Shown in pieces: positions 3,241 through 14,320 of a DNA stretch of 35,167 nucleotides. This DNA comes from Candidatus Omnitrophota bacterium. Its GTDB lineage: Bacteria > Omnitrophota > Gorgyraeia > Gorgyraeales > Gorgyraeaceae. The stretch is taken from NCBI GenBank assembly GCA_018824145.1, contig JAHJHC010000077.1, forward strand, positions 1-35,167, written 5' to 3'. The notes beneath the pieces were generated by a model, which did not search any database, was not told the origin of the DNA, and saw only the letters and a list, made by a program, of their open reading frames with translations. The position numbers were made by a program, and so were the translations under genes. Position 1 is the first letter of the stretch. Every line of letters starts with the position of its first letter.

Positions 3241-3570
3241 ATGATAAAAAATACAATTTCTATTAGTCTATTGATATTAATCATCACCATTAGTTTTATA
3301 AATAACCCTACCTATGCTGTTCCTGAATCAGTGAAAAGTACTAAAATGGGCACCAAAAAACAGGTAGAACAAGACTATGAAAGAGAGCGTCAGTTTATTG
3401 AAAAAAGAAGCCTTATAGAAGAAGTTAGAGGAAAGATAAATGAAGAAGCTGAAGATACGTTGCAACAACAAGAAGCAGAACCATGCCCAGATCCATTATT
3501 TTCGCCTAAATTTCTAGGGCCATTTAAAGATGAACCCGTGCATATTCCGTTGTCTAGTGAAAAAGATTAA
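3241..3570 (+). CDS. small secreted hypothetical protein
   Basis: Signal peptide (MIKNTISISLLILIITISFINNPTYA), charged helical remainder. Confidence 0.6.
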   Translation: MIKNTISISLLILIITISFINNPTYAVPESVKSTKMGTKKQVEQDYERERQFIEKRSLIEEVRGKINEEAEDTLQQQEAEPCPDPLFSPKFLGPFKDEPVHIPLSSEKD

Positions 3571-3640
3571 GCCACAGATGCCAGTGTAGCTGCACCATCT
3601 CATGGTGCCAATGTGCCAAGTAGAATTTTTTACCAAAATT

Positions 3641-6600
3641 ATGATAAAGTTTAAAAAAGGTAATAACTTGAAGGTTGTAGCAATATTATTGAGCATAGTA
3701 TTCTTATGTAATACCAGTCTATATTCCTGCCCTGGTTCAGAAGATACTCTAAGAGTTCCTGTTGGAGAAGCTGGTACCCGTAGACGCATGAAAGAAGTTT
3801 ATGATGAACAGGAAAAACACACAGTCCCTAATCGTGCAACGGATATTGAAAGCTTGGGAAGACTTTTACAGGAAAAAGGCTTTATAGAAGATTTTGATGT
3901 AATCAAGCTGATAGGACAGGGTTCTTTCTCTGCGGTATACAGGGAAACAACGAGTCACGGTGATTACTCCGTGCACTTGAGCACTGCAATAACTCCTTCC
4001 ATGGTTCGCTTCTATGATCAGATTAGATTAATAGCATATGAGGCAGGATTGCCGATTCAACCATTCGTTCGTGATAGCGCCAACCAACCCTACACAGAGG
4101 CAGATGGATGTATTGTTACCGTTACAACCTTTGTTGAAGGAGAGCCTGGCGAGTGGGGTCAAATGACGCAGAAGCAGTTGCTGGTTACGGCAGAGGCTCT
4201 TTGTCGATTTCATAGAGCCATGAGGGAAAATCTACCATTATTGAAACACTTGTATGACTCCATGAGGGAGGAATTATCGATTCGAGAACGGGTTGATCCC
4301 AAAAACAAAGGCTGGCCGTCAATCGATTTGTACCACCTTGATGAAGCCCTTGAGCAATTTGAAATTCTCCGGGAAGGTGCCCAGGGACAAAATACAAGAG
4401 AAGCCAGGGCTTTCCTTGATAATTATGATTTTTTTATAAAGCAGCTCGAAACCTTAACTGAAAACATAACACCACATCTTCAAGATGAAGGTTTGCTTTG
4501 TACCATCGGGCACGGTGATTACAATCCTAGGAATGTACTATTGCGGGATGGTTCGCTTCTTACAGGTATCCTGGATTTGGATTTCGCTGCGGTGATGCCT
4601 CGCATCGCTGATTTGATTAACCTTATGATCGTAAGTCAAACTCCAACTTCGAGGTTGCAATTCGACATAGATAAAGTCGAAACGTTCATTCTCGCTTATC
4701 AACAGGCGGCCGAGGAGCCCTTGACGGACATAGAGCGTAAACTGTTGCCAGAGATAATGCGTTGGTTTTATCTACAGCTTGTGTTGACAGATGCTTACTA
4801 TGTTCTGCGAGGTGGGGTTGAGTGGTCGATAGAAGAATCTCTTATGCAAGAACGCCAGGCATTGGAAAATATTCCAACATGGGATTGGGCCGAACTCGCT
4901 ACAAAAATCGCACAAGATGCTATGACTGTGAAGGAAGCAGCTGTAATATTAGACGGGATGCAAACTGCCTTTGGGAGTGTATCAGGAGAAGATCTGAGGG
5001 ATTTGGTAGCTACTATGGAGCCTTTGACAGTACCACAGCGCCGAGCGTTAGAAAGAATGATAAGAACGGGAGAGCAGACAGGACAGATTGTTTCTGACAG
5101 GGGTGAAAGACCAGCATTAGCTGGAGAAGGAGATCTTAACTGGCATCCACATTTAGATTTCGATGATGTCTTAGAACTTGGACTTACAAGCGATGATATG
5201 TATGCATTAGTTGGCGAAGCCGCATATTTAATTCAGACTGGAAGCATTAATCTTAAGGGGAGCCTTCTTTTGTCGCAAAAGATAGTTCGTTTTCGCCTGT
5301 ACCCTTCAACGCAATTTGGAGGTTTTATTGTGTGTGTGACAAGCATTAAGGACCAGATGACTGAAGGAGTCGTAGAGTTTCCTGGAGTTGGTGCCGAAGT
5401 TATACATTTCCCATCCCAAGACGCGAGCTACGAGGGAGTCGGGATAATTGAAGGAGCAGCCCGCGGTGCAAGTATGGGGCCACTATGGGCAGCAATAGAA
5501 GCGGCCAGAGAATTAATAGCAGCGGGCAAATATCAAGAAGCCTTAGCTATATTAATGCCAGCATTGACGTTGGCTCGAATATATACACAAGGAAAAACTC
5601 CGGATTTTGATGGATATCAAACAGCGATAGCTGTATCTGATAGAATAGCTGAAGTTGAGACAATTATTGATGTGGATAGAGACCTTACTGAAGGGATTCC
5701 TGCAGCAGAGGCTTTAGTCGCAGAAGCCCAGGCAGCATTAGCTCAGGCGAATAGATGTCGCTGGGGACCGAACAGAGGACAAGTTTTGTTTGAATATAAA
5801 GGAAGGGTTACATTAAAAATCCCGGAATTATTTAGCTCCTTTAGGCAAGTTTTAGTTGACGAAGAGCTAGTTGAACTTATTGGGACAGAACGTATTAATG
5901 AGATATTAGAGTTTATAGCTTCAATGTATGAAAATGATCCCGGACGTTTTGAAGAAAATCTGATTAATGAAACTATTCATCATGGAGGAAAACTAAGTGG
6001 TTTTTCTGCTCTAACAGGAAGAGTAGATGATGAGGAAGTTGGTGAACCAAATATCCTTCTTATTACTTTAAATCCTGTTACTCGTGGTATTAGATTAGCT
6101 GTCCATTATTCTGCAAAAGATAAACATAGTAAAGAATTCAGCGCTGTTTATGCACTTAGATCTGAGGTCGAAGTCCCCGGGCCGCAAATAAATTCTGTTG
6201 AGATGTCTTCAATGCCTGTTCCGGCAGTAAAAGTGGTTTTTCCTAAATTCCGCATTGCATTTAATGGTGATGTAGTTATAGTTGATGGTTTGACCAACCG
6301 AAGAATCCAGAATCCTACTCGACAAGCTATCATTAGTATAATAAGAGAAGCTACAGGTAATCACATGGTTAGCTTAGATTTAACAAAGTTACTTAGAAAA
6401 TTGGGTGCAATACGTCTCCATGCACATATTATTGCTGATCCAGAAGGGCGTAAATGGCTTGTTGTAGGTAAAGAAGCTTCAGGTAAGGCTGCTCTTGCTG
6501 GAAAGATACATGAACGCCCTGAGTTGTATGGAAAATGGGACTTGTTTGCAGCAATACAAGCTGCAGCATTTTTAGATCCAGATGACAAAGATGTATTGGT

Positions 6601-9600
6601 AGCTGGCGATCTCCAGGGAGATAGGCCTACGAGGAGGTTGTATTATCTAGATAGGGATACAAGGCATGTAGATACAGGTATGACTCCAAAACGTGGCTTT
6701 TACAAGATATATGGCATAATAATCATGGATAGTTCTCCCATGTTTTCTGGTTCTTATCAACGTTTTTTGACTCCTTTAGACAACTTAGAAGAAATACTCG
6801 GTCGTGCTATAGCAAGAATGCCATTAACGAAGGCATATGAAGGTTATTTAGATGATATAACTGAATTATTTGAAAGGGTTGCTAAAACATTACCAATAAT
6901 CTTGGTACATAGACCCAAAGACACGCCACTGCCTGTTTTTGAAGAAATGGTTAATAGAGTAGTTGATCTGACCACCAGCGCTTCTGCCGGGATTGAAACA
7001 CATGTTCAACTTTCAAATGATGCACCGGGTGGGGAAGGAGGACAGGCTGGTAACGTTGGGCCAGTTTTAGATGCTCAAATGGCTTTAGATGCAGGAAGAC
7101 ATAAAGAAGCTTATGACTTATTAATGGAGGCTTTATTAGGTGAGGATTATGTGGCTGAGGTTTTTACAGGAGAAGCTATGGAAGAAGTGATAGACAGATT
7201 GATTGAACATTATCCTGAAACTACAGAAGAAGGAAGAATACTTAGAGCGATGAGGCCTATAGTAGAGGAGCATCAATATGATGCTGACCAGACTGCGATG
7301 AAGGCAACATTAGCTCAGACAGCAGAAAAGGTTGTCAGTGACGCATTAAACAATTTGTCTCCACGTGAACTAGAAGTCTTGAAGCTAGCAGCTCAAGGTT
7401 TGATGAATAGTGAAATTGTCAGTAAATTATCGCCTATCAGATGGAAAGGTAAGGTTAAAAATCATATAGGGGAAGGTGCGGTTAGAAAGCATCTGAAGCA
7501 TATTTATCAAAAACTCGGTCTCACTAAGACGACTCGTGATAAACGACAACGAGCGATTATAATAGCATTAGAAAATAACGTTGTAGATTTTCCGGATTGG
7601 GTTAGAAATGCAGGGGTAAAACTAAGAGATATCCTTTCTCCTAGAGAACAAGAAGTTCTCGAATTGGTAGCCAAAGCGTTTACGAGTAAGCAAATTGCAG
7701 ATAAATTGGGTATAAAAACTAGAACAGTTAGGATCCATATAAATAGCATCAGTAGAAAAATAAGGGATGAGATTGAGAGTGGTAGATTAGAGGACTATAT
7801 GACTCGTCACGAGATGGCATTGCTTTGGTTTTTCCAAAATGGAAAATATGTATCAAACACAGATGTCGCACTAGTTAATAAGGCTCTAGAAGAAAGATTA
7901 AGAACAGTAAGAGATGACATGGGAAGCATGACGTACTTGATGAACCCCAATCAATTTTATTTTGGTGCCCCCTCAGTAGCTAAATATGGATTGAGTTCTG
8001 CAAAAGAGGCCCGTGAATTAAAAGAAAGGTTGCGGGTTGAAAGGGCGGCAATGGATAAAACTTTGAGGGCATTTAGTAGGCTTGCGCCAGAGACTAAAGT
8101 AGTATTTAGATTGGATGGTGTAATGGTTGATGATGCGGAATTGAGAGTTTTAATCGAAGAAATTAGAGAAGGCAGGATAGATTTTCCTGTTGCCATTTCT
8201 GCTTCTGAAGACGATAGGGCTACTACTTGTTTCTTTGACAGAAGACCTGGATTTGGCCCATTATCAATTGGTTGTTACAGTCAAGAGTTGCAGCGTGTAA
8301 TAGTAAAGAAGCTATCTCCAGGCGAGAGACGCATATTTGATATTATACACAATAACCTTGGCGATACTCTTACTGTAGATATTCTTGTAAAACGAACGAG
8401 GTTAGTTGATGTTGAAGTTACTATGTATGTGAGAGGACTTAGTTTTGAGTTAGGACTTGCGATGAGATGGAATGTGCCTCATGATGAAAGAATCGTTGCT
8501 ATCCAGGAATATTTATTGTCTCAACAAGCAGTTGCAGCCGAAGAAGCAATGGAAGCCTTAAATGATCCTGATAATATCAGGGGAGCTGAAGAAGCTATTT
8601 CAACATTACTAGATGGCGCTGCAATAGGGGTTTCTGATACATCAATAGAAGAGCTTGCTCGAAGAAGAGATGAGTTGGATGAGCTTATGGCAGAACTGAG
8701 GGTAGTATTATCGTCGAGTAGTACATTGCAATCTGAAGGAGAGGATACTGTATTACTATATGGAAGCTTGAAGCGTTTAAGGGAAGCTATAGATATAGAA
8801 TTAGCAAGAATAGGACATTTAAAAGATGCTGTTGATACGGCAGAAACAGAGTTAGATGCAGCTCGTAAGAAAGCTGCAAGAGAAATAGCTGCGATAGAAG
8901 ATTCAGCAGGAGATCGTCATTTTTCTCGTAGGTCTAGAAGAATAGAAGACAAATACAACATTCCTGAGTTAAGAGGTGCTTTAAATAGAGCAGAGCAAGC
9001 TTACCTGAATGCTACCAGGTATAGGCAGATAGACTCAGAGGGAAGAAAAGCAGGTTATGTAATGGCAATATCTCACGTAAGGGAAATCATTGATCAGAAA
9101 AAACAGCAGGTAGAAGGACAAGAGCATCGACCTCCAAAATCAGAGCGGAAGAGAGAAGGACATCTCATTGTAGATGCAAAGCCTCATAGACGTCATCCGA
9201 TTATAGGGAGATTAATTGAAGGCGAAGCAATAGATGAAGTTATCAATAATTTACGAGAGGTAGAAATCCCTGAAATCTTAGAAGCTTTACTCGATGATAT
9301 AGCAGAATTGCGAGGACTGACAAGGATACCCGGTGGATTTACATACACTAATCCTATACTAGATAGCTATGGAATTAGTACGAGAGAAGAGGCTGAGTTG
9401 TTATGTACTCAGTTGCTAAGGATAAGGAGAATTGTAGACATTGAGTTAATAAGAAGAAAGCATCTAAGAGAAGCTGTTGATAGAGCAATGGAAGAGTTAG
9501 CGTTGGCTCGTACTAAAGCTGAGAGAGAAATAGCTACATTAACTTTAGGAGGGGTCAAATTAAGACGTGGAAAGGTTAGGGAAATATATGAAAGACACGG

Positions 9601-10021
9601 GATACGTGACTTAGAGTTAGCGTTACATAGAGTAGTGGAAGCTTACCGCAACCCTGCTAGGCAGACAGATGCGGAGGATGATTATGACTGGGTACGAGAA
9701 GCAATAGTAGTCTTGGAAGATGTAGTTGCTTTTAGCGCTGAGTATGCATTATTAGAACATGGAGTTGATGTAGAAGCTGGACAAAGAGCAGTTATTATAA
9801 CTACGGATCCTCTACAAGAAGAGCGTTTGATGAATCAGCCAGAAATAAGAGAGAGATTAGGATACGATATATTTATCATAAGATTAGAAAGAGGTACTGA
9901 AGCAGAGATACAGTGGAATGCTCTATTAGGTGATTATGGAGTGCGTTATGATTTTAATACAATGACGATTGAAGAGATAATTAATAACAGGAATTTGATT
10001 GAAGTACTTGTCGGAGTATAG
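3641..10021 (+). CDS. giant multidomain protein: signal-like N-terminus, APH/choline-kinase-like domain, degenerate P-loop region, two LuxR-type HTH segments, duplicated C-terminal helical module
   Basis: Uninterrupted ORF (listed start 3602; ATG 3641, [29 protein letters not shown], looks more natural). [11 protein letters not shown]...[34 protein letters not shown]...[49 protein letters not shown]. Confidence 0.85.
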   Translation: [2126 protein letters not shown]

Positions 10022-13357: not shown

Positions 13358-14320
13358 GTGAAACTAATAGACATCTATCAGACTGCAGTAAATTTTGGTA
13401 TGAAAATGGATCCCAGAGGAAGGGATAAGGTAAAAAAAGAACTTTTAAGGGCAAAAAAAGAGTATGATCAGTTGAGTGAACGTGATAAGGAATTCTATGA
13501 TAAAGAAAGGTTAGTCCATCCATATAGTGATACGCGTATCCTTTTTGGTAAAAGGGATTCCGAGATCAAGACAATGCTTGTGGGTATAGATATAGAAGTA
13601 GGGGAGGTTCTTTTGGCAGACAGATTGAGGGAGAAGGGCGAGGAGATAGATCTATTGCTTTCTCATCATCCTGAAGGTATGGCTCTGGCTAACTTTTTTA
13701 ACGTTATGTATATGCAGATTGATATATTGGAGAATATAGGTGTGCCCGTAAATGTCGCTGAAAGTTTACTGTCACAAAGAATAAAGGAAGTGGAGAGGAA
13801 GGTTTTACCTATTAATCACATGCGTCCGGTAGATGCAGCGAGACTTCTCGACCTTTCGTTTATGACATGTCACACACCGGCTGATAATTGTGTGGCTAAG
13901 TATTTACAGGGTTTGCTTGATAAGAAAAAACCAGAGACCCTTGGTGAAATACTGGATATCCTTATAGCTATCCCGGAATATAAGGCTTCGGCAAAATTAG
14001 GTTTACAACCTAAGATTGTAAGAGGCAATCCTTCGAGCAAGGCCGGAAAGATATTTGTAGACATGACAGGCGGGACAGAGGGATCAAAGAATATATTCAA
14101 TAAGCTTTCTCAGGCAGGGATATCAACATTGGTTTCGATGCATCTTAGTGAAGAACATTTCAAAAAGGCCCAAGAAGAGCATTTGAATGTGATTATTGCC
14201 GGCCATATTGCGAGTGATAATCTGGGGCTTAATCTTCTTCTCGATGAAGTAGAGAAAAAACAAAAGTTTAAGATGCTGACTTGTTCGGGATTTCAGAGAT
14301 TTTCCCGATCACATAAATAG
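13358..14320 (+). CDS. NIF3/DUF34-family protein
   Basis: LLLSHHPEG..., CHTPADN, GTEGSKNIFNKLSQAGISTLVSMHLSEEH..., IIAGHIASDNLGLNLLLDE. Confidence 0.75.
   Translation: MKLIDIYQTAVNFGMKMDPRGRDKVKKELLRAKKEYDQLSERDKEFYDKERLVHPYSDTRILFGKRDSEIKTMLVGIDIEVGEVLLADRLREKGEEIDLLLSHHPEGMALANFFNVMYMQIDILENIGVPVNVAESLLSQRIKEVERKVLPINHMRPVDAARLLDLSFMTCHTPADNCVAKYLQGLLDKKKPETLGEILDILIAIPEYKASAKLGLQPKIVRGNPSSKAGKIFVDMTGGTEGSKNIFNKLSQAGISTLVSMHLSEEHFKKAQEEHLNVIIAGHIASDNLGLNLLLDEVEKKQKFKMLTCSGFQRFSRSHK

Follow-up and report, generated by a model that had tools for sequence, protein, structure and literature searches.

Why should a single protein place domains of cytoplasmic type behind an N terminus that looks like an export signal? 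This question is raised by a giant open reading frame (ORF) in a 35,167-base stretch of DNA (the window; contig C96 of a 1.73-Mb draft genome in 149 contigs) from a member of the Omnitrophota, which are tiny uncultured bacteria. The gene at 13358-14320 of the window places it there: its closest named relatives, at 73-76% identity, come mostly from Omnitrophota MAGs, among them CG1_02_40_15 and UBA10183. A first-pass annotation of the window had described one ORF of about 2.1k amino acids (aa) with such a combination, and we found a single unbroken frame of 2,126 aa plus stop, running on the + strand from ATG 3641 to the stop at 10021 with no internal stops. Its longest frame opens at 3602 (2,139 aa), but the start at 3641 was preferred because relatives begin at the matching MxxFKK position; start codons of related genes were likewise picked by hand. 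The hydrophobic, signal-like N terminus is real and conserved in those relatives, and what recurs throughout the bacterial family is a constant leader, a variable mosaic body, and a constant end. The unit of interest is this family-wide class and not one protein. The comparisons below make it somewhat probable that the window protein is one cargo of a lineage-specific, Sec-exported, doubly tagged export class. The features that this reading draws on are as follows.

3641..10021, + strand: giant ORF of 2,126 aa plus stop, counted from its probable start
3641..3727, + strand: predicted Sec-type signal peptide (E 4.0e-28 with leader profile A1, E 3.4e-14 with the signal-peptide-only profile; the window protein is a seed of both), cleavage site placed by eye from the alignment
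3749..3760, + strand: LRVP motif after the signal peptide, an aligned column
9719..10018, + strand: probable C-terminal domain (CTD), similar to the C termini of G005:C41 and L073_2867; profile match 3.8e-12 as a seed
9995..10018, + strand: C-terminal tail, IEVLVGV-COOH, with a small residue and V at the end, fitting the family tail rule

A search of the same genome with the giant protein showed that its first 70 residues, the signal peptide and LR[VP]P leader, recur on other long ORFs. These lie on C128 (a glutamate dehydrogenase [GDH] domain, a receiver domain just under the cut-off, and two GerE helix-turn-helix [HTH] domains), C125 (2,515 aa), C132, C120 (phosphofructokinase [PFK]), and C56 (FG-GAP), and a pattern search with the LR motif added C58, a full GDH. 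Within this Omnitrophota family, a profile built from seven leaders gave matches in all but one of 19 genomes (18/19) and as many as 19 in a single genome, with thin matches elsewhere in the class; the census of leader proteins rests on such profile searches. From 64 complete ORFs the consensus reads M..FKK..NLKIIS....FL.NS..Y[GAS]..S....LR[VP]P, after which an arginine is conserved, and by alignment the anatomy of a signal peptide is conserved across all 64. LR was the filter for this set and is therefore present in 64/64 by construction; the P after it was not selected and stands in 47/64. When the first 30 residues alone were used as a profile, without LR, the class was recovered in 16 of the 19 genomes and the readable non-seed matches (L140, L147, L148, and L161) ran on into LR, a test that is partly independent, its seeds having been drawn from the earlier leader profile. 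The leader had no Pfam match. Phylum-wide, a hydrophobic leader precedes many giant ORFs and LR[VP]P fades (73/384 genomes).

These observations bear on the explanations that the first-pass annotation had offered. An intracellular regulator with a misleading N terminus is disfavored, since dozens of unrelated proteins carry the leader, with the anatomy of a signal peptide and a conserved motif after the cleavage site. A fusion of separate genes by assembly error is unlikely because the same leader heads many further ORFs, long and uninterrupted, both here and in other genomes, and nothing in the sequence supports the processing of a polyprotein.

Other observations on leader genes were made along the way. 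In a second leader class, the signal peptide is followed by [ST][LI]FK[ND]K[KQ]V[DN]Y in place of LR[VP]P (L277, L279, L284, L294, and L295); these proteins are 2,000 to 4,000 aa long, and L284, L294, and L295 finish in the CTD described below. Leader genes often adjoin one another (L085, L091, L114, L123, and L131), and some of these neighbors are diverged duplicates, for example the genes for TPR proteins at L085 and L091. Leader-like starts on short, soon-stopped frames at L136 and L151 (G014) are possibly decayed copies.

The second constant part lies at the other end. For the tail count, the 64 proteins were chosen by their N terminus alone and compared with 125 other ORFs of the same loci; these controls were taken as the longest open frames, so that nongenic frames may be among them. 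The last residue was V, I, or L in 52/64 leader proteins (81%) versus 35/125 controls (28%; p = 2e-12). The same residues were shunned at position -2 (2% versus 30%) and enriched at -5 (48% versus 24%), and K/R was enriched at -7 (47% versus 21%). With one protein taken per C-terminal homology cluster and CTD proteins removed, 33/41 still ended in V/I/L (p = 3.6e-9). The window protein ends ..EVLVGV, a small residue and then V/I/L, as the tail rule asks.

Beyond the tail, a CTD of ~105 aa is common to 16 of the 64 leader proteins, and iterated CTD profiles matched almost only extreme C termini. The window C terminus aligned with those of G005:C41 (38%, E 7.5e-10) and L073_2867 (35%, E 2.4e-06), in both cases at their C termini, and its match to the CTD profile (3.8e-12) is that of a seed. 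When members were left out one at a time, 10/17 were recovered at E < 0.05; among 2,791 ORFs, the best-scoring nonmember was usually another leader protein (L275, L276, or L278) and once L102_5756. A family-wide CTD search led us to fetch 15 further loci, where L295 completes a seed and the other 14 ORFs are non-seed. In all 15 ORFs, no more than 6 residues separate the end of the CTD from the stop, and the last residue is V, I, or L in 13; a signal peptide was seen in 5, and 4 run off their contig. Within the genome of the window, seven of eight CTD matches fall in leader ORFs, all seven being seeds, and in the sample the domain is confined to the same Omnitrophota family (8/384 phylum genomes, all f1). 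No convincing match to the CTD was found in Pfam, NCBIfam, or PDB. The alignments with G005:C41 and L073_2867 make it likely, though not proven, that the window protein belongs to the wider CTD family. The sequence FDGDTVLA in L017 hinted that the CTD might derive from a HAD-like domain, an idea that found no support in Pfam, NCBIfam, or PDB. We note also an 8,103-aa open frame, L289 (G015:C5), which is cut by a contig end and finishes in the CTD (..KDALTGV). At L275 (528-850, contig C14 of the same genome), an apparent decayed leader gene has a 55-aa leader fragment beside a 62-aa CTD-like fragment that ends DELRQHLDQA.

Between these ends, the bodies vary. Pfam searches of 47 leader proteins returned unrelated bodies of cytosolic type, and many had no match at all. 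Metabolic bodies were PFK, GDH (twice), proline dehydrogenase with TIM, and ThiG; those related to sugars were starch synthase, glycogen phosphorylase, and phosphoglucomutase with glucosamine-6-P isomerase. Further bodies included PPDK, HIT, LMW phosphatase, methyltransferases, orphan HATPases, sigma-70 region 2, GNAT, nucleotidyltransferase, a second APH, TPR, HEAT, LysM, and others. The genome of the window also has separate standard genes for PFK (E 5.9e-117) and GDH (E 8.8e-94), and 104/309 residues are identical between the leader-borne and separate PFK. The leader-borne PFK retains GGGDC, PK[ST]IDND, and MGR; the GDH retains GGxKG, DVPAGD, EGAN.PT, and NAGGVA; and the TIM reads NWK, GHS, and YGxSVK, all of which we take to be the known active-site motifs of these enzymes. 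By a simple hydropathy scan, only 4/64 bodies have a transmembrane (TM)-like segment. The bodies are mosaic, with modules reappearing in differing contexts among leader proteins; one of them, an HTH-bearing module of the window and C128 proteins, is a recent copy. The ratio of nonsynonymous to synonymous substitution rates (dN/dS) was 0.12 to 0.47 in 7/8 homologous pairs, and pairs of leader proteins are thus mostly under purifying selection. Also noted, at L021-L022 (contig C56 of the same genome, 1-30553), was a 10,184-aa open frame that runs off the contig start and has DnaJ, ARMT1-like, and five GerE domains.

In the window protein itself, the kinase core, paired LuxR-type HTHs, and duplicated C-terminal module of the first-pass annotation were all borne out. 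The APH-type kinase was matched by Pfam PF01636 (E 1.9e-15) at residues 104-371, numbered on the frame from 3602, with both HGD..N and D.D motifs; PDB sequence matches of this region were weak. LuxR/GerE HTHs were matched in 2 stretches by PF00196 (E 5.6e-22), and alignment of one copy to the other gave 8e-07; neither a receiver nor a sensor domain was found beside them. The two copies of the C-terminal module are identical at 44/104 positions (42%, E 2e-15), with a score of 152 versus a shuffled maximum of 58. A degenerate P-loop, also proposed earlier, did not hold up: GKEASGKA (6467) fails the Walker A consensus, the strict form [AG]xxxxGK[ST] is absent from the whole window protein, and the region around it has no Pfam or PDB sequence match.

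3911..4714, + strand: APH-type kinase domain (PF01636, E 1.9e-15), with HGDYNPRN at 4511 and DLDFA at 4574
6467..6490, + strand: GKEASGKA, a putative degenerate P-loop, unsupported
7049..7333, + strand: module common to the window protein and other leader proteins (L105, 48% identity)
7343..7534, + strand: LuxR/GerE HTH, copy 1 (PF00196 match and copy-to-copy alignment)
7346..7849, + strand: HTH-bearing module common to the window protein and the C128 leader protein (59% identity, dS 0.29)
7631..7762, + strand: LuxR/GerE HTH, copy 2 (best PF00196 stretch, residues 1344-1387)
8732..9040, + strand: duplicated helical module, copy 1, by copy-to-copy alignment
9377..9676, + strand: duplicated helical module, copy 2, by copy-to-copy alignment

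The leader genes also have a common element upstream. In many of them, a hairpin (often AUAGCC...GGCUAU) precedes U6-7 and a short spacer that reads AUU-AUG where it reaches the start codon, with no obvious Shine-Dalgarno sequence. A T-run at a fixed position was found in 43/64 leader genes versus 18/106 control genes, and a hairpin directly abutting the T-run in 35/64 versus 2.75 in dinucleotide shuffles and 9/106 controls. These counts come from a per-sequence hairpin test, with which MAFFT pair counts agree only partly, as the aligner shifts the hairpin arms. The arrangement looks like an attenuator, and Rfam gave no family match for the 5′ region. The window gene has the T-run and a hairpin nearby, fails the strict test of a hairpin abutting the T-run, and folds no better than shuffles in its 5′ region (z -0.19).

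3592..3608, + strand: hairpin GCACCATC/TCATGGTGC before the start codon, formed in the predicted fold
3626..3640, + strand: T-run and conserved spacer TTTTTTACCAAAATT directly before the ATG, with no obvious Shine-Dalgarno sequence

The shared front signal and shared end tag suggest an undescribed route that may move inner-cell machinery out of the cell. In such a scheme, Sec would carry the chain across the inner membrane and signal peptidase I would cut after Y-[GAS], leaving LR[VP]P near the new N terminus. A partner in the periplasm or outer membrane could then read LR[VP]P and the CTD or tail as signals for sorting or retention, and the protein would either exit through one of the secretins or be kept in the periplasm; the genome has one signal peptidase I gene and at least five secretins. 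The hairpin would tune expression of the leader gene set. New cargo would arise as copied domains, or spare paralogues of housekeeping enzymes, became fused between the constant ends, and the bodies would then act beyond the cytoplasm, whether in the envelope or a partner cell. In its fullest form, as a new two-signal sorting system in which a Sec leader with LR[VP]P in front and a CTD or short hydrophobic tail behind carry DNA-binding proteins and duplicated cytosolic enzymes that are still active out of the cytoplasm, to the envelope or a partner cell, under attenuator-type control common to the set, we regard this proposal as possible but short of probable.

Several results weigh against an exported, doubly tagged class. 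The CTD is very divergent, with a mean column identity of 23%, and the leave-one-out searches missed 7/17 members, the window protein among them. Among the 15 fetched CTD ORFs, 6 begin without a signal peptide; several of the 6 are short fragments. The rules for tail and hairpin were framed on the same data that test them, with partial checks only, and a dN/dS of 0.78 was obtained for the HTH module common to the window and C128 proteins. Finally, many bodies (kinase, dehydrogenase, and LuxR HTH) need ATP, NAD, or DNA, all of them in short supply outside the cytoplasm. That such domains should be exported is the strangest point of the proposal; it favors a destination in a partner cell, or else some unknown biochemistry of the envelope, and is at the same time the strongest argument for the first of the alternatives.

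In that alternative, which we judge unlikely, the leader stays uncut and serves as an anchor, with the body remaining in the cytoplasm as a membrane-bound regulator or metabolic scaffold, where domains dependent on ATP, NAD, and DNA make direct sense. The lysine-rich start, short hydrophobic stretch, and following Y-[GAS] site are, however, the anatomy of a signal peptide, and by the positive-inside rule, as general knowledge has it, the body of a protein so anchored would face outwards. It is also conceivable, though we hold it quite unlikely, that the proteins of this export class are effectors delivered to a prey or partner cell and act in the cytoplasm of another organism. Substrates for kinase, dehydrogenase, and DNA-binding bodies are present there, the bodies need a cytoplasm to work, and among the Omnitrophota are bacteria with giant ORFs that are predicted to be predators or symbionts (PMC10066038); starch synthase and phosphorylase bodies would suit nutrient handling equally well. 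A decaying graveyard, in which a recombination-prone 5′ end (promoter, hairpin, and leader) captures gene fragments whose products have no selected function, would account for the mosaic bodies and module copying, the L275 remnant, the dN/dS of the window/C128 module, and the many bodies without a family match, but is very improbable given the low dN/dS of the remaining pairs, the motifs retained in PFK, GDH, and TIM bodies, and ORFs thousands of codons long that lack stops and keep conserved C-terminal ends.

If an export class is the right reading, it would be analogous to two known systems and a member of neither. With type IX secretion system (T9SS) cargo of Bacteroidota it shares the logic of signal peptide plus CTD (PMC12618676, PMC5445135), but its cargo is of cytosolic type and the phylum differs; no T9SS sorting model was among the NCBIfam/Pfam matches of the whole window protein or of 19 CTDs. 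As in phytoplasma SVM proteins, one conserved signal precedes variable mosaic bodies, but leader-class bodies are large, with enzyme domains and a conserved C terminus, and the SVM_signal model (PF12113) matched 1/42 leaders at a nonsignificant E of 0.072 and none of the rest. No standard architecture was found to account for the window protein, in keeping with the first-pass annotation: its two recognizable domain types come from the superfamilies of APH phosphotransferases and LuxR/NarL regulators, and it fuses both in one 2.1k-aa protein behind a putative export leader.

The giant ORFs of Omnitrophota have been described as poorly conserved, with few annotated domains, and possibly as adhesins or coat (PMC10066038; also PMC12057145, PMC11573180), those of Velamenicoccus and relatives having few domains and TM helices (PMC10066038). 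The leader class resembles the Velamenicoccus-type ORFs in phylum, great length, and poor annotation (PMC10066038), as well as in the leader-like starts that precede giant ORFs phylum-wide and the CTD that ends the 8,103-aa frame. None of the papers that we read or searched mentions a leader or an end shared among these ORFs, or enzymes as their cargo, preprints on giant genes being outside this coverage. These ORFs are a standing puzzle, and the common leader and end make many of them a class that can be searched for by sequence. The class would indicate that metabolism is exported by bacteria believed to depend for their living on other cells, whether on their surface or at their expense, and, if the ends are sorting signals, to a secretion pathway unlike those described, with a cargo list readable from the genome.

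A phage origin found no match among 50,697 phage records, and a peptide-pattern search returned the same protein in no named genome. Single-sequence AlphaFold2 models of the CTD and APH regions were unusable (predicted local distance difference test scores of 48 and 39). Just upstream of the giant gene (window 3241-3570), a 109-aa ORF lacking LR[VP]P has a signal-like N terminus of its own.

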